NCBI RefSeq assembly: GCF_009659535.1
Contig: NZ_VJZZ01000008.1
Location: 64,001 to 128,000, forward strand
Length of the DNA: 64,000 nucleotides
Direction: 5' to 3'
DNA from: Aggregicoccus sp. 17bor-14
Lineage (GTDB): Bacteria > Myxococcota > Myxococcia > Myxococcales > Myxococcaceae
This document shows, one piece after another, positions 2,610 through 59,900 of the stretch. Numbering within the stretch: the stretch's first letter is position 1; the number at the start of each line of letters is the position of its first letter. The position numbers and the translations under genes are program-made. The notes beneath the pieces were generated by a model. That model saw only the letters and a program-made list of their open reading frames with translations, did no database searches and was not told where the DNA came from.

Positions 2610-3851
2610 CTAGCGCACCGGCAGGAAGAGCCGGTCGGTGCGCAGGCCCGAGCCCCCGAAGAGGCTGCTGCCCACCCCGCCGTGGCCCCAGGCGAACCAG
2701 ATGACCATTGCCTTGCCCTTGATGTGGCCGAAGGGCACGTAGGCGGCGACGCCCCTGCGCCCGCCCAGCTCGTGGCGGCTGTCCGCGCTGTTGTCGCGGT
2801 TGTCACCCATCACGAAGACGTGCCCGGGCGGCACCACGTAGGGCCCCTCGGTGACGTGGCCCTCCGGGTGCCCGGCGTTCTGCAGCACCGCGTGCGCGTG
2901 GCCGCTGAGGTTCTCCTCGTAGAGCACCTGCTCGTCCGAGACCCAGTCGGTGTCGCTCAGGCTCCAGGTGACGAAGTCCTCGGCGCGCAGGGTGCGCGGT
3001 TGCGGCTGGCCGTTGACGTGCACCACCTCGTCCACGACCTCCACCGTGTCCCCGGGAACGCCCACCACCCGCTTGATGAAGTCCTTGGACTCGTCCATCG
3101 GGTTGTTGAAGACGATCACATCCCCGCGCTGGGGCGGGCGCACCGCCACGAAGGGCACGTAGTTCGTGAACGGGATGCGCACCCCGTAGAGGAACTTGTT
3201 CACGAACACCTGGTCGCCGATCTCCAGGGTCGGGAGCATGGAGCCGGAGGGGATCTTGAACGGCTCCACCACCACGGTGCGGATGAGCAGCGCGATGGCG
3301 AGCGCCTTGAGGAAGCCCGAGGCGAAGTCCATGGCGGACTGGCGGCGGTAGGCCCCCAGGTGCTCGCTGGTCAGCGTGCCCAGCACCTCCAGCTCGCGCT
3401 TGAGCGCGGACGCATCCGACTCGAGCGAGGCGCTCTCCACGCGCAGCGCCTGCTCGCCCAGCTGCGCCGCCGCCGCCTCGCCCACCTTGCCGCGGGCGCG
3501 CGCGAGCAGCACGTCGATCTCCTGCATCAGCTCGCGTGCGTCACGCCGCAGCGCGCGCAGCTGGCGCTCGCGTGAGGAGGCGAGCCGCCAGAGCAGCAGC
3601 CCCACGAACGCGATGAGCAGCAGCAGGGCGAGGTACTGCATCAGGGGCTGCGCCCAGCGCCCCGAGCCCGGCACCAGCTCGATGAGCAGCACGTAGGGCA
3701 CGAAGGCGAGGCCCAGCAGCGTGAGCGGCGCCCAGAGGCTGGTGAGCCGCTCGCGCCAGCGAAGCTGCCGGGTGGCGCGGGCCTGGGCCTCGGGACGGCG
3801 CGCGTTCATCGCCTCGTCGAGCGAGAGCGGCGTGGAAGCGGCGGCGGGCAT
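2610..3851 (-). CDS. lepB: Signal peptidase I with long N-terminal membrane region
   Basis: Cleaves signal peptides of exported proteins at the outer face of the inner membrane. Catalytic Ser204 lies in PSGSMLPTLE and catalytic Lys260 in KDFIKRVVGVPGD; the box MGDNRDNSADSR follows near residue 350. The 413 residues exceed the usual 250-320. The extra part is two N-terminal helices (about 41-60 and 71-89), a charged, probably coiled-coil segment (about 95-170), then the usual anchor helix just before the catalytic Ser. The ATG chosen overlaps the lepA stop as TGATG with GGAGGAG just upstream; a GTG one codon earlier is possible. lepA-lepB coupling is a widespread arrangement. Confidence 0.96.
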   Translation of the reverse strand: MPAAASTPLSLDEAMNARRPEAQARATRQLRWRERLTSLWAPLTLLGLAFVPYVLLIELVPGSGRWAQPLMQYLALLLLIAFVGLLLWRLASSRERQLRALRRDARELMQEIDVLLARARGKVGEAAAAQLGEQALRVESASLESDASALKRELEVLGTLTSEHLGAYRRQSAMDFASGFLKALAIALLIRTVVVEPFKIPSGSMLPTLEIGDQVFVNKFLYGVRIPFTNYVPFVAVRPPQRGDVIVFNNPMDESKDFIKRVVGVPGDTVEVVDEVVHVNGQPQPRTLRAEDFVTWSLSDTDWVSDEQVLYEENLSGHAHAVLQNAGHPEGHVTEGPYVVPPGHVFVMGDNRDNSADSRHELGGRRGVAAYVPFGHIKGKAMVIWFAWGHGGVGSSLFGGSGLRTDRLFLPVR

Positions 3852-5662
3852 CACTCCTCCGTCTTGAGCACGGCGAGGAAGGCCTCCTGCGGGATCTCCA
3901 CGGAGCCGACCTGCTTCATCCGCTTCTTGCCCTCCTTCTGCTTCTCCAGGAGCTTGCGCTTGCGGCTGATGTCACCGCCGTAGCACTTGGCGAGCACGTT
4001 CTTGCGGATGGCGGAGATGGTCTCGCGGCTGATGACCTTCGCGCCGATCGCCGCCTGGATGGCCACCTCGTACATCTGCCGCGGGATGACCTCCTTGAGC
4101 TTCGTGCACACCTCGCGGCCGCGCTGGTAGGCGCGCTCCTTGTGCACGATGACGCTCAGGGCATCCACGGGGTCGCCGTTGATGAGGATGTCCAGCTTCA
4201 CCAGGTCGCTCTCCTGGTAGCCGCCCAGCTCGTAGTCGAGGCTCGCGTAGCCACGGGTCACACTCTTGAGCTTGTCGAAGAAGTCGAACACCACCTCGGC
4301 GAGCGGCATCTCGTACGTCACCTGCACGCGCTGGCCGCTGGTGCCCAGGTACTTCATGTCCTTCTGCACGCCGCGCCGGTCCTGGCACAGCTTGAGCACC
4401 GCGCCCAGGTACTCGTTGGGCACGTGGATGTGGCTGATGAGCAGCGGCTCCTCCATGTGCTCGATGTGCTGCACGGCCGGCAGCTTCGCCGGGTTGTCGA
4501 TGAGCAGCTCCTCACCCTTGTTGGTGAAGACCTTGTAGACCACCGAGGGCGCGGTGGTGATGAGCGAGAGGTTGTACTCGCGCTCGAGCCGCTCCTGGAC
4601 GATCTCCATGTGCAGCAGGCCGAGGTAGCCGCAGCGGAAGCCGAAGCCCAGCGCGGTGGAGACCTCGGGCTCGTAGGTGAAGGCGGCGTCGTTGAGCGTG
4701 AGCTTGGCGAGCGCGTCGCGCAGGTTCTCGTAGTCCGCGGCGTCCACCGGGAAGATGCCCGAGAACACCATCGGCTTCACTTCCTTGAAGCCCGGGAAGG
4801 GCGCGTCCGTGGGGCGCAGCTCCTCGGTGACGGTGTCGCCCACCTTCGCGTCCTGCAGCTCCTTCACGTTGGCGACGAGCACGCCCACCTCGCCCGCCAT
4901 CAGCTGCTGCACGGGGCGCGAGAAGGGGCTGAACACGCCCAGCTCCTGGACCTCGAACTTCTTCTTGTTCGTCCAGAGCATGATCTTCTGCTTGAGCGAC
5001 AGCGTGCCCTCGAGCACGCGCACCAGCACCACCACGCCGCGGTAGTTGTCGTACCAGCTGTCGAAGATGAGCGCCTTGAGGGGCGCGGCGGGGTCGCCTG
5101 CGGGGGGCGGCACGACCTTCACCACCGCCTCGAGGATGTCCTCGATGCCGATGCCCTCCTTGGCGGAGGCCGGCACCGCGACGGACGCGTCGATGCCGAT
5201 CACGTCCTCGATCTCGGCGCGGGTGCGGTCCACGTCCGCGCTGGGCAGGTCGATCTTGTTGATGACCGGGATGATGGCGAGGTCGTGGTCCAGCGCCATG
5301 TACACGTTGGCGAGCGTCTGCGCCTCGACGCCCTGGGTGGCGTCCACCACCAGCAGCGCGCCCTCGCACGCGGCGAGCGAGCGGCTCACCTCGTACGCGA
5401 AGTCCACGTGTCCCGGCGTGTCGATGAGGTTCAGCACGTACTTCTGGCCGTCGCGCGCGGTGTAGTTCATGCGCACGGACTGGGCCTTGATGGTGATGCC
5501 GCGCTCCCGCTCGATGTCCATGTTGTCGAGGAACTGGGCCTGCGCCTCGCGCTTGGACAGGGTGCCGGTCTTGTCCAGGAGGCGGTCGGCCAGCGTCGAC
5601 TTTCCGTGGTCGATGTGGGCGATGATGCTGAAGTTGCGGATGTGAGCGTTCTCGGACGGCAT
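3851..5662 (-). CDS. lepA: Elongation factor 4 (LepA GTPase)
   Basis: Ribosome-associated translational GTPase that back-translocates or remodels ribosomes. The 603-residue length is typical. Visible motifs are the P-loop [15 protein letters not shown], the switch region [19 protein letters not shown] and NKIDLPSAD, and the LepA-specific C-terminal end ([20 protein letters not shown]). The ATG at 5662 is preceded by AGAGAAC. It heads the operon lepA-lepB-orf-pyrB-pyrC, with lepB overlapping its stop. Confidence 0.98.
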
Positions 5663-23420: not shown

Positions 23421-25322
23421 TCAGGGTACGCGCGGGCCGGAGGCGTCGGAAGCGGCGGCCTGCAGCGAACGGACGCCCTCGTGCTCCGGGTTGAGCGAGA
23501 GTGCCATGTCCAACAGAGCGGCCGCCCCGCGCGGCGCGTGCATCGCCAGCGCGAGGCGCGCGCCCAGCACGTAGGCGCGCACGAAGGCGGCGTCGGACTG
23601 GCGCAGCTGCTCGAGCGCGGCCGTCGCCTCCTGCAGCGCTGCGCCGCCGAGCCGCTCGGGGGGCCCGTTGAGCGCGTACTCGGCCTGGGCGATCGCATCC
23701 CAGCCCTGCGCGGCGCCCGTCGCGCGCAGCCGCTGCAGCGCGGCCGGCGCCTCGGCGCTGCCCTCCACGGCACTCAGCAGCGCCTCGGCGCGCGCGCGGG
23801 AGGCCAGCTCGGCGGCAGGGGCATCCGGGCTGGGCGCCGGGCCCAGGGCCGTCATCGCGGCCTCGGCGCGCGCGCGGGCCTCCTGGACGCGCTTGGACTC
23901 GGCCACGACCTTCTCGTGGTGCCGCGCCTGCACGGAGCGCAGCTGCTCGCTGCGCCGCTCCCAGCCCTCGGGCGCGCGCGCAGCCTCGAGCTCCTCCCGC
24001 TCGCGCTGCGCGCCCTGCTCCAGGAGCCGCGCCTGGCTCTCGCGCACCTTCGCGTCGTCGAGCTCCAGGGCCAGCGCCAGCGCGAGCTCGCCGCGCGCCT
24101 CGGCGTAGGAGGGATGCGCGCGCAGCACCTGCTGCAGCACCTCGATGGCCTGCGCACGCGAGCCGGAGTCGTCACGGCGCAGCAGGGCCGCCGCGCTGTC
24201 CCGCGCCGCGACCGCCTGCACCGGGAAGGCGCCCCCCCTGCGCTGAACGGTGCGCCAGGCGAAGAAGGCGAGCGCTGCGAGCAGCGCCGCCAGGAGCACG
24301 AGCCACACGCCGGTGCGGCTGCGCGGGGGCGCCTCGCCGCGCTGCGCGCGGGTCCCCTGCACCCGCGCACCGCGCTCGGAGAGCAGCTCCGGCGGCAGCT
24401 CCACCCGGGAGGCGCCGGGAGCAGCGGAGGGCTCCGCGCCGAACACCTGGGTCGAGCCTCGCGCTGCGCCGGGCGAGCCCGCGGGGGCGCCGAAGGCGGG
24501 AGTCGCCGCGCGCGGCTCCTCCGCGGAGGGCGCACCGAACACCTGGGTCGTCGCCCGCGGCGGGGGCGGGGGTACGGGGCTCCCGAACACCTGCGTGGAC
24601 GTGCGGGGCGCCGCCGCGTCGGGCGCGGCGGGGCTCCCGAAGACCTGGGTGGAGGCCCGGGGCGCCCCGGCCTCTACGGCCGGCGTGCCGAAGACCTGCG
24701 TGGAGGCGCGCGGCGGCGGCGGGTGGGCGGCCGGGGTGCCGAAGACCTGCGTGGAGGCCCGGGGCCTCCCGGACTCCGCAGCGGGGCTGCCGAACACCTG
24801 CGTGGAGGCGCGCGGCGCTGCGCTCTCACCTGGCGCGCTGCCCGGGGCCTGGGGCGAGGAGCGAGGCACGCCACCTTCGGCGCCCGGCGCTCCGAACGCC
24901 TGCGTGGACGCGCGCGGCGCCGTGCCCTCCTTCGCCGCGCTTCCGAACACCTGCGTCTGGGCGCGAGGCGCGCTGCCGAACACCTGGGTCGACGCACGCG
25001 AAGACGACGGGGGCTCGGAGGCAGCGGGCGGCGCGGAGGCCGGCGCGCCGAACACCTGGGTGGAGCGCAGCGAGGCGGCCGCGTCGCGCTCCTGGGGCGT
25101 GGTGGGGGAGGCGCCGCCGAACACCTGCGTCTGCGAGCGGGCCGGGGTGCCCTGCACCGCGCCCACCCCGAAGACCTGGGTGCTGGCGCGCGCCGGGGCG
25201 CCCCCGGGAACGGCCGTGAAGACGTGGCTGCAGCGGGTGCACTGCACGGGCGCCCCGCCGGGCGGCAGCAGCCGCTCGTCGAGGACGTACTGCATGGCGC
25301 ATTGGGGACAGGCGATCTGCAC
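23421..25322 (-). CDS. MJ0042-type zinc-ribbon membrane protein with TQVFG motif array
   Basis: A 633-residue protein with a GTG start. Residues 5-31 (CPQCAMQYVLDE ... CTRC) form a zinc-finger/MJ0042 ribbon. Residues about 45-296 are disordered, rich in Ala, Pro, Ser and Gly, and carry 12 exact TQVFG motifs plus three decayed ones (TQAFG, SPQAPG, ATPAFG). A single helix follows (about 338-358, VWLVLLAALLAALAFFAW), then a helical Ala/Glu/Arg-rich domain with TPR-like character to the C-terminus. The cytoplasmic ribbon and motif array with a periplasmic helical domain suggest a signalling scaffold. No function is known to me. It precedes the glycosyltransferase gene by 152 bases. Confidence 0.85.
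   Translation of the reverse strand: MQIACPQCAMQYVLDERLLPPGGAPVQCTRCSHVFTAVPGGAPARASTQVFGVGAVQGTPARSQTQVFGGASPTTPQERDAAASLRSTQVFGAPASAPPAASEPPSSSRASTQVFGSAPRAQTQVFGSAAKEGTAPRASTQAFGAPGAEGGVPRSSPQAPGSAPGESAAPRASTQVFGSPAAESGRPRASTQVFGTPAAHPPPPRASTQVFGTPAVEAGAPRASTQVFGSPAAPDAAAPRTSTQVFGSPVPPPPPRATTQVFGAPSAEEPRAATPAFGAPAGSPGAARGSTQVFGAEPSAAPGASRVELPPELLSERGARVQGTRAQRGEAPPRSRTGVWLVLLAALLAALAFFAWRTVQRRGGAFPVQAVAARDSAAALLRRDDSGSRAQAIEVLQQVLRAHPSYAEARGELALALALELDDAKVRESQARLLEQGAQREREELEAARAPEGWERRSEQLRSVQARHHEKVVAESKRVQEARARAEAAMTALGPAPSPDAPAAELASRARAEALLSAVEGSAEAPAALQRLRATGAAQGWDAIAQAEYALNGPPERLGGAALQEATAALEQLRQSDAAFVRAYVLGARLALAMHAPRGAAALLDMALSLNPEHEGVRSLQAAASDASGPRVP
24437..25181 (-). repeat. Array of TQVFG-encoding repeats, uneven spacing
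   Basis: Fifteen units, 12 with an intact TQVFG, mostly as (R)ASTQVFG(S/T/A)P at intervals of about 13-25 residues. Codons vary between copies (ACC/ACG for Thr, GTG/GTC for Val), and the linkers differ. The peptide motif is therefore conserved rather than a recently copied DNA block. Confidence 0.85.
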
Positions 25323-57878: not shown

Positions 57879-59900
57879 CTAGCTGCCAGCGGGCGAGAAG
57901 ATCCACGGGTAGGTGACGGCCACCGTGCCGCCGCCCTTGGGCTCGGGGAACTTCCAGCGGCGGATGCGGCTGAGCATGCACTGCTCGGCGGCGCTGCTGC
58001 CCAGCGTGGTCTCGGTGACGTCCGCCTCGCTCACTCCACCCATGGGGTCGATGGTGAAGGCGACCGCGACCTTGCCCTTCAGGTCCGGCTGCTTGTTCAG
58101 CTCGGACTCGTAGCAGTACTTGATCTCGTTCTGGTGCTGCCGGATGACCTTCTGGATGACGTCCTTGTCGAGGCCGCCCACCACGGTCGTCTTGCCGGGG
58201 ATGATCTTGGTGATGTCCTTGCCGCGGCCGCCCAGGTCGATGCCGCCGCCGCCCGTGCCGCGGCCGGTGCCCTGGGTGCCCAGGCCGCCGAGGCCGATGG
58301 CCGTGCCGCCGCCACCCACGCCGGTGCCGCGAGAGCCGAGCCCGCCCACGCCCTGCGCATCACCCATGCCGGCGCCGCCCTTCACGCCGCCCAGCGCGTT
58401 GTTGATGCCGGAGCCGAGGCCGCCCGGACCGAACACGTCCGAGACCGCGCCGTTCTTGCCCTTGAGCGCGCCGAGCAGACCGGCGCTGGCGACCTTCTTG
58501 CGGTCCAGTTCCTTCTTGTCCTTCTGGACCACGGGGGCGCCCGCCTTGGAGGGATCGGCCTCGGCCTTCTTGGCCTCCTCCTTGCCGAACTTGCCCTCCT
58601 CCTTCTCGGCCTTCGCACCCTCCTCCGCACCCGAGAGCTTCTGGGGCTTGGGCGGCTCCGGCTTCTTGGTCACGATGAACTTGGCCACCATCGCCTGGGT
58701 CGCGGCATCGTCCTCGGCGGTGCGCGTCTCGGAGCGCGGGCTGAGGAAGATGGCCGTGATGAAGGCGCCGAGGCCGAGCAGGCACACGCTCGCGATCTTG
58801 AAGAAGGTGTAGTCGCGCTCCTTCGCGCTCTTGGCGATGACGAGCGGGCTGGGCCGCACGTAGCGCACCACGAAGGTGACGTTGCCGAAGGCGACCTCGG
58901 CGCGGTCGTTCAGGCCGAGCGTGAGCACCTCCTGGTTCTCCGCCACGCTGAGCTGCCCGGCCGAGCGCAGGCTCTCCTTGGAGCGCACGTTCCCGTGCTG
59001 CGTGAGGATGATGCCGGTGCCGGCGGGCACGCGCAGCTCGAGCTTGTCCGCACGGCTGATGGCGAGCGGGAAGCTCTTGCCCAGCTCGGGGGCGAAGACG
59101 TGGAAGTCGTTGAGCTTGCCCTCGCCGACCTTCACCTGCACGTCGTCGCGGTAGTGCTCCACGCCCATCATCTGGTCGCCCCAGAAGAGCGCCACCTGCA
59201 GCACCTTCTCGGCCGCGGTGGGCTGGGCGTCCGCGGGCAGCGGATCCTGCAGGTGCGGCGGGCGCGCAGGCCGGAACGGCGCGGCAGCGCGCTGCTGCTG
59301 CAGGGCCACCGGCTTCACTGGCTGCACGGAGGCGCGGGCGCGCAGGTTCGGAGGCGCGCTGACCACCGGGCGGTTCGCCGGCGCGGGCGGGTTCACCACC
59401 GGCACGGGCGGGTTGACCACGGGGCGCGCGGCGTTCACGGGCGCCGCGTGCATGCGCACCGGTGCGGGCGCGGGCATCGCGCGAGGCAGCGTGAGCTCCT
59501 GCAGCGGCGCCGGGCTCGAGACCCCGCTCGGAGCCGCGACGTGAGCGGCCACGGGCACGGGCGCAGGCACCAGCTGGGGCACCGGCTCACCGAAGAGCAC
59601 GGTGACCTGCGAGCCACCCACCGTGAGCACGTCGCCGGAGGCGAGCGCCATCGGGATGAGGAGCCGCTGGCCCTTCACCTGCGTCCCGCTCTCGCTGCCG
59701 AGATCGATCGCGGTGACCGCGCCGCTCGGGTCCACCTTCAGCATCAGGTGGAGATTGGAGACCCGGGGGTCCTGGATCTTCACCGCTGCCGCGGCACCCG
59801 ACCCCACCAGGATGCTCTCGGAATCCGCCACGGTCTCCTGAGTGGAGCCATCCGGTCCCGTGATCCGAAGCGTCAAACCGTTCTTCTTCGCCGCCGCCAT
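57879..59900 (-). CDS. gltG: FHA/AgmX-PglI C-terminal-domain membrane protein, GltG-like
   Basis: 673 residues from the ATG at 59900 (GGAAGGAAC upstream). A cytoplasmic FHA domain (about 8-100: SILVGSGAAAAVKIQDPRVS, SNLHLML, VLTVGGSQVTVLFGE), a Pro/Ala-rich linker, a second folded region (about 230-350), one membrane helix (about 365-385, SVCLLGLGAFITAIFL), a Lys/Glu-rich stretch, a Gly-rich region (about 470-570) and a TonB-like C-terminal domain (VIRQHQNEIKYCYESELNKQ ... RRWKFPEPKGGGTVAVTYPW) make the GltG/PglI layout. In gliding it links the inner-membrane motor to the envelope. The FHA Arg of the GR motif is Ser. NfsG of the sporulation paralogue looks the same. Confidence 0.85.
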   Translation of the reverse strand: MAAAKKNGLTLRITGPDGSTQETVADSESILVGSGAAAAVKIQDPRVSNLHLMLKVDPSGAVTAIDLGSESGTQVKGQRLLIPMALASGDVLTVGGSQVTVLFGEPVPQLVPAPVPVAAHVAAPSGVSSPAPLQELTLPRAMPAPAPVRMHAAPVNAARPVVNPPVPVVNPPAPANRPVVSAPPNLRARASVQPVKPVALQQQRAAAPFRPARPPHLQDPLPADAQPTAAEKVLQVALFWGDQMMGVEHYRDDVQVKVGEGKLNDFHVFAPELGKSFPLAISRADKLELRVPAGTGIILTQHGNVRSKESLRSAGQLSVAENQEVLTLGLNDRAEVAFGNVTFVVRYVRPSPLVIAKSAKERDYTFFKIASVCLLGLGAFITAIFLSPRSETRTAEDDAATQAMVAKFIVTKKPEPPKPQKLSGAEEGAKAEKEEGKFGKEEAKKAEADPSKAGAPVVQKDKKELDRKKVASAGLLGALKGKNGAVSDVFGPGGLGSGINNALGGVKGGAGMGDAQGVGGLGSRGTGVGGGGTAIGLGGLGTQGTGRGTGGGGIDLGGRGKDITKIIPGKTTVVGGLDKDVIQKVIRQHQNEIKYCYESELNKQPDLKGKVAVAFTIDPMGGVSEADVTETTLGSSAAEQCMLSRIRRWKFPEPKGGGTVAVTYPWIFSPAGS

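Follow-up and report, generated by a model that had tools for sequence, protein, structure and literature searches.

Why would a bacterium keep the same five-residue peptide twelve times over in the disordered linker of a membrane protein? The question is raised by a gene in the window analyzed here, a 64,000-nucleotide stretch of DNA from the myxobacterium Aggregicoccus sp. 17bor-14. A preliminary description of this DNA noted the peptide, TQVFG, between a zinc ribbon and a transmembrane helix, and suggested that its repetition creates a multivalent docking platform, for example for an FHA or a kinase partner.

Architecture of the Array Protein and Its Genomic Surroundings

The features of the gene and its protein are collected in Table 1. 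Residues 1-36 score 47.5 bits against the Zn_ribbon_4 family (curated cut-off 30.3 bits) and carry the CxxC...CxxC pattern, which identifies the N-terminus as a bona fide member of this family. In the AlphaFold2 model of the full protein, the well-predicted ribbon is followed by a long stretch (residues 45-332) with pLDDT values below 50, by the membrane-spanning helix, and by further helices that run on to residue 627. TPR models match the C-terminal domain in up to 14 of 21 orthologues; a fold search with this domain returned generic TPR matches only, none of them with an E-value below 0.001.

Table 1. Features of the array gene and of the protein it encodes (window coordinates).
Feature	Position	Strand	Basis
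Whole gene, 633 amino acids, GTG start	23421..25322	(-)	Open reading frame and translation
Zinc ribbon (PF13717), residues 1-40, CPQC...CTRC	25203..25322	(-)	E 1.7e-12; pLDDT about 90
T-x-x-F-G array in disordered linker, residues 47-296	24435..25184	(-)	Pattern search; pLDDT <50
Transmembrane helix, residues 333-363, N-terminus predicted cytoplasmic	24234..24326	(-)	AlphaFold2; Lys+Arg bias
C-terminal TPR-like helical domain, two long helices, probably periplasmic	23424..24233	(-)	pLDDT 90.9 when predicted alone; TPR models

Among 46 relatives, Lys and Arg residues number 157 on the N-terminal side of the helix versus 95 on its C-terminal side, and no N-terminal signal was seen on the protein. 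Because of this excess of positive charge, and because a signal-less N-terminus of 330 residues is unlikely to be exported, the array and the zinc ribbon most likely face the cytoplasm in an N-in, single-span arrangement, a sequence-based prediction that agrees with the orientation assumed in the preliminary description.

The genes upstream of the array gene, on the same strand, are lysC and a gene for a helix-hairpin-helix protein. Among relatives, a common gene order is kept that comprises a TPR protein, a hutH-like gene, lysC and the array gene, followed by genes for a glycosyltransferase, an NlpC/CHAP protein, a HEAT protein and UvrD. No conserved FHA or kinase gene was found beside the array gene in the loci compared. 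Elsewhere in the window, at about 59616-59810 on the minus strand, an FHA domain forms part of a larger protein whose Gly-rich C-terminal part resembles AgmX-type proteins.

An Array That Has Been Held at the Peptide Level

The linker holds 12 exact copies of TQVFG, together with TQAFG at residue 140, TPAFG at residue 274 and, close to residue 158, the decayed PQAPG; all lie within residues 48-295, and the count and the disorder given in the preliminary description are thus borne out. When the linker sequence was shuffled 20,000 times, TQVFG occurred on average 0.0006 times and never more than once. A genome-wide pattern search located the exact peptide in the 12 copies of the array and otherwise at a single, chance-like place in an efflux-pump-like protein.

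From residue 140 onward the copies follow a register of 15-18 residues, and part of the array keeps a 51-bp register, which indicates that this part has grown by tandem duplication. The Thr, Phe and Gly residues are nevertheless unchanged in all 14 T..FG copies, while their codons differ synonymously in 0.60 (Thr) and 0.65 (Gly) of the copy pairs; Phe is encoded by TTC in every one of the 14 copies. Silent codon changes around constant Thr, Phe and Gly residues imply that the copies, once duplicated, were maintained by selection on the peptide. At the linker positions +5 to +11, by comparison, the residue differs in 0.57-0.89 of the copy pairs, and the selection on the peptide that had been proposed for this array is hence well founded.

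Conservation of a T-x-x-F-G Core across the Family

A match to the protein was found in 47 of the 60 genomes searched, and a search of named genomes returned 61 loci, including those of Myxococcus, Corallococcus, Pyxidicoccus, Hyalangium and Archangium. Synteny of the gene extends throughout the Myxococcaceae, Myxococcus xanthus included. One contig bearing a typical Myxococcus-type orthologue is titled Comamonas sp. KCTC 72670, a record that is probably mislabelled or contaminated.

After removal of duplicates, 68 linkers were compared. Some of them come from distant relatives or are incomplete, and closely related species do not count as independent, so that a binomial figure calculated from this set is no more than indicative. 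These linkers contain between 0 and 20 copies of T..[F/Y]G, and the median spacing of the T..FG copies is 23 residues. To keep the count of Thr residues non-circular, sites were anchored on the FG dipeptide alone. Thr occupies position -3 of FG at 569 of the 622 sites (91.5%) in the 68 linkers, and Ser occupies it at only 5 sites versus the 54 expected from composition; in the neighbouring genes, just 6% of 552 FG sites have a Thr at this position. Immediately ahead of the motif Thr, both Ser and Thr are frequent, so Ser is not simply avoided in this region of the protein.

Counted from the Thr, Q, M or R predominates at position +1, depending on the lineage, position +2 is mostly V, A, M, T, I or L, and position +3 is F or sometimes Y, which yields lineage variants such as TQAFG, TQTFG, TRAFG, TNVFG and TMMFG. 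The middle pair is identical in 0.39 of the comparisons between copies of the same protein versus 0.08 between proteins. Taken together, the constancy of the FG-anchored Thr and the lineage-wise change of the middle pair define a core T-x-x-F-G (more closely, T-x-hydrophobic-F-G) whose middle is homogenized within each lineage. The expectation that the number of motifs varies while their sequence is held therefore stands for Thr, Phe and Gly, but TQVFG itself was too narrow a definition. In 17 genomes, the T-Q-x-F-G clusters among the matches listed all lie at the orthologue or at one of its homologues. In four orthologues, additional conserved peptides follow the array (STVRVDLE, RTQRFAM and R-T-A/Q-LFAM), the latter two of which retain the T and the F but not the G.

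The preliminary description had regarded orthologues that lack the motifs, or that carry random substitutions in them, as evidence against its proposal. The Thr count at the FG sites speaks against random substitution, and absence of the motifs is restricted to a single clade and to weak, array-poor relatives. The four homologues from this clade are devoid of T..FG motifs but retain the ribbon, the helix and a C-terminal domain of similar kind, and in two of the genomes (G045 and G057) the adjoining glycosyltransferase gene is also present, which marks the locus as the same. Since ribbon, helix and TPR domain persist without it, the array represents a separate module of the protein. A further relative, from another family, has TQMFF and TAMFM, with T and F in place and no G. 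The idea that the zinc ribbon itself reads the array is opposed by the retention of the ribbon in the array-less homologues. Genes for an FHA protein and a kinase-like protein (positions 3550-4400 and 1-1908 of the locus) lie a few kb from the orthologue in G045, a proximity that is about what chance allows.

Possible Readers of the Array

We tentatively favour, as a good possibility rather than an established probability, that the array is a membrane-anchored, phosphorylation-switched platform onto which an FHA protein docks through phosphothreonine. FHA domains bind pThr but not pSer, a discrimination caused by the methyl group of Thr (PMC4037201), and the bacterial self-ligands of GarA, OdhI and DgcB have hydrophobic residues at +2 and +3 in common (PMC6733907). 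The array shows the same pattern, as its Thr is kept against Ser and is followed by hydrophobic residues at both positions; it is this pattern, together with the precedent of PknG, that leads us to FHA docking, and it would make the candidate FHA partner more specific than the FHA-or-kinase partner suggested previously. Side and remnant motifs (VTQMFF, QTAMFM, RTQRFAM) likewise keep the T and the F without the G.

The disordered N-terminus of PknG recruits the FHA protein GarA through several pThr residues once it has been phosphorylated, one of the sites lying within STQAVFR, and PknG also possesses a rubredoxin-type metal domain and a TPR domain (PMC8546545, PMC4322841). PknG differs from the array protein in carrying a kinase domain, in lacking the single-span membrane topology, and in offering about four sites where the array protein has a series of identical motifs. 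GarA itself carries pThr22 within ETTSVFR (PDB 2kfu), so that T-S-V-F of GarA can be set beside T-Q-V-F of the array; the self-ligands of GarA, OdhI and DgcB differ from it in being single sites, typically with Glu at -2 and with no G at +4 (PMC6733907).

In the mechanism that we envision, the ribbon and the disordered linker would lie on the cytoplasmic side of the membrane anchor, where a Hanks-type kinase would phosphorylate the Thr residues of the T-x-hydrophobic-F-G repeats. A cytoplasmic FHA protein would then bind pThr, with the Phe at +3 occupying its specificity pocket; the multiplicity of weak copies would provide avidity and a graded response, and the TPR domain across the membrane would probably sense or anchor to a partner in the envelope. 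The array, the selection on it, the strictness of its Thr and Phe, the predicted disorder and the domain layout are the observed foundation onto which phosphorylation, FHA binding and the direction of the signal are added as postulates. A more far-reaching version, which we consider possible but less than probable, is that up to 20 near-identical pThr-FHA ligands set the valency through their copy number, that each lineage has its own FHA reader with which the middle residues co-evolve, and that the whole corresponds, in bacteria, to the multi-pThr scaffolds of eukaryotes.

The genome contains 29 FHA matches and 33 kinase matches. FHA matches number 43-55 in four other array-bearing genomes versus 6-15 in the array-less clade, a difference confounded by clade and genome size. 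As side observations, S/P-T-R-V-M/A or D-S-T-R-I-V motifs recur in three zinc-ribbon and four FHA proteins, and two FHA-GGDEF proteins of this genome have such a Thr near the N-terminus, as do their M. xanthus homologues (PMC6733907).

Several features speak against FHA docking. The G at +4 is almost invariant although FHA binding has no such need, the Glu favoured at -2 by known self-ligands is absent from the array, and no cognate FHA or kinase gene is conserved beside the array gene, an adjacency that is common but not required. An invariant Thr can, moreover, also serve an unphosphorylated motif, and the main rival is accordingly that T-x-x-F-G is bound as it stands by a cytoplasmic motility, polarity or envelope factor, which we regard as possible but less than probable, and as only a little less likely than FHA docking. 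The strict F and G, the variable spacing and number of the copies, and the disorder would fit any linear-motif array. GltJ-type zinc-ribbon membrane proteins serve as adaptors in motility complexes, and GltJ/AgmX-type myxobacterial proteins share with the array protein an N-terminal zinc ribbon and a long, disordered-looking linker; a GltJ-like protein among those compared has, however, a GYF-type domain and no T..FG array, whereas the array protein ends in a TPR domain. Unphosphorylated docking alone leaves the preference for Thr over Ser unexplained; a partner may need both the methyl and the hydroxyl group, but this would be a less common situation than recognition by a pThr reader.

It is improbable, in our view, that the repeats instead behave like nucleoporin FG repeats and cohere through their Phe residues into a condensate or a brush at the membrane. 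Aromatic residues are regularly spaced in a disordered chain in both cases, and the array scores 35.5 bits against Pfam Nucleoporin_FG (PF13634; cut-off 32.2), a match of the low-complexity type. For cohesion, an invariant Thr at -3 of FG is not required; we therefore do not assign this bacterial membrane protein to the nucleoporin repeats. It is very improbable that the array merely results from tandem duplication and does little more than serve as a flexible tether, since the register, the within-protein likeness of the middle pairs and the array-less clade that retains the remaining protein are outweighed by silent codon differences around a constant T, F and G, by drifting linkers, and by a single core maintained across lineages despite differing middle pairs.

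Significance of the Array

Docking through multiple pThr sites is already known. For a long array of near-identical motifs on a zinc-ribbon/TPR membrane protein, we found no account in the open-access papers searched, which leave out most subscription papers, so that an earlier description is possible; nor did these papers yield work joining MJ0042 and Myxococcus, or a phosphoproteome of a myxobacterium.

Few links are known between the many Hanks-type kinases and the many FHA proteins of myxobacteria. The conserved repetition of one Thr motif offers a ready bait for both the reader and the kinase, and it may become a model of multivalent phospho-signalling at the bacterial membrane. Should docking prove to be independent of phosphorylation, the array would still represent an uncharacterized linear motif that is kept across the family.
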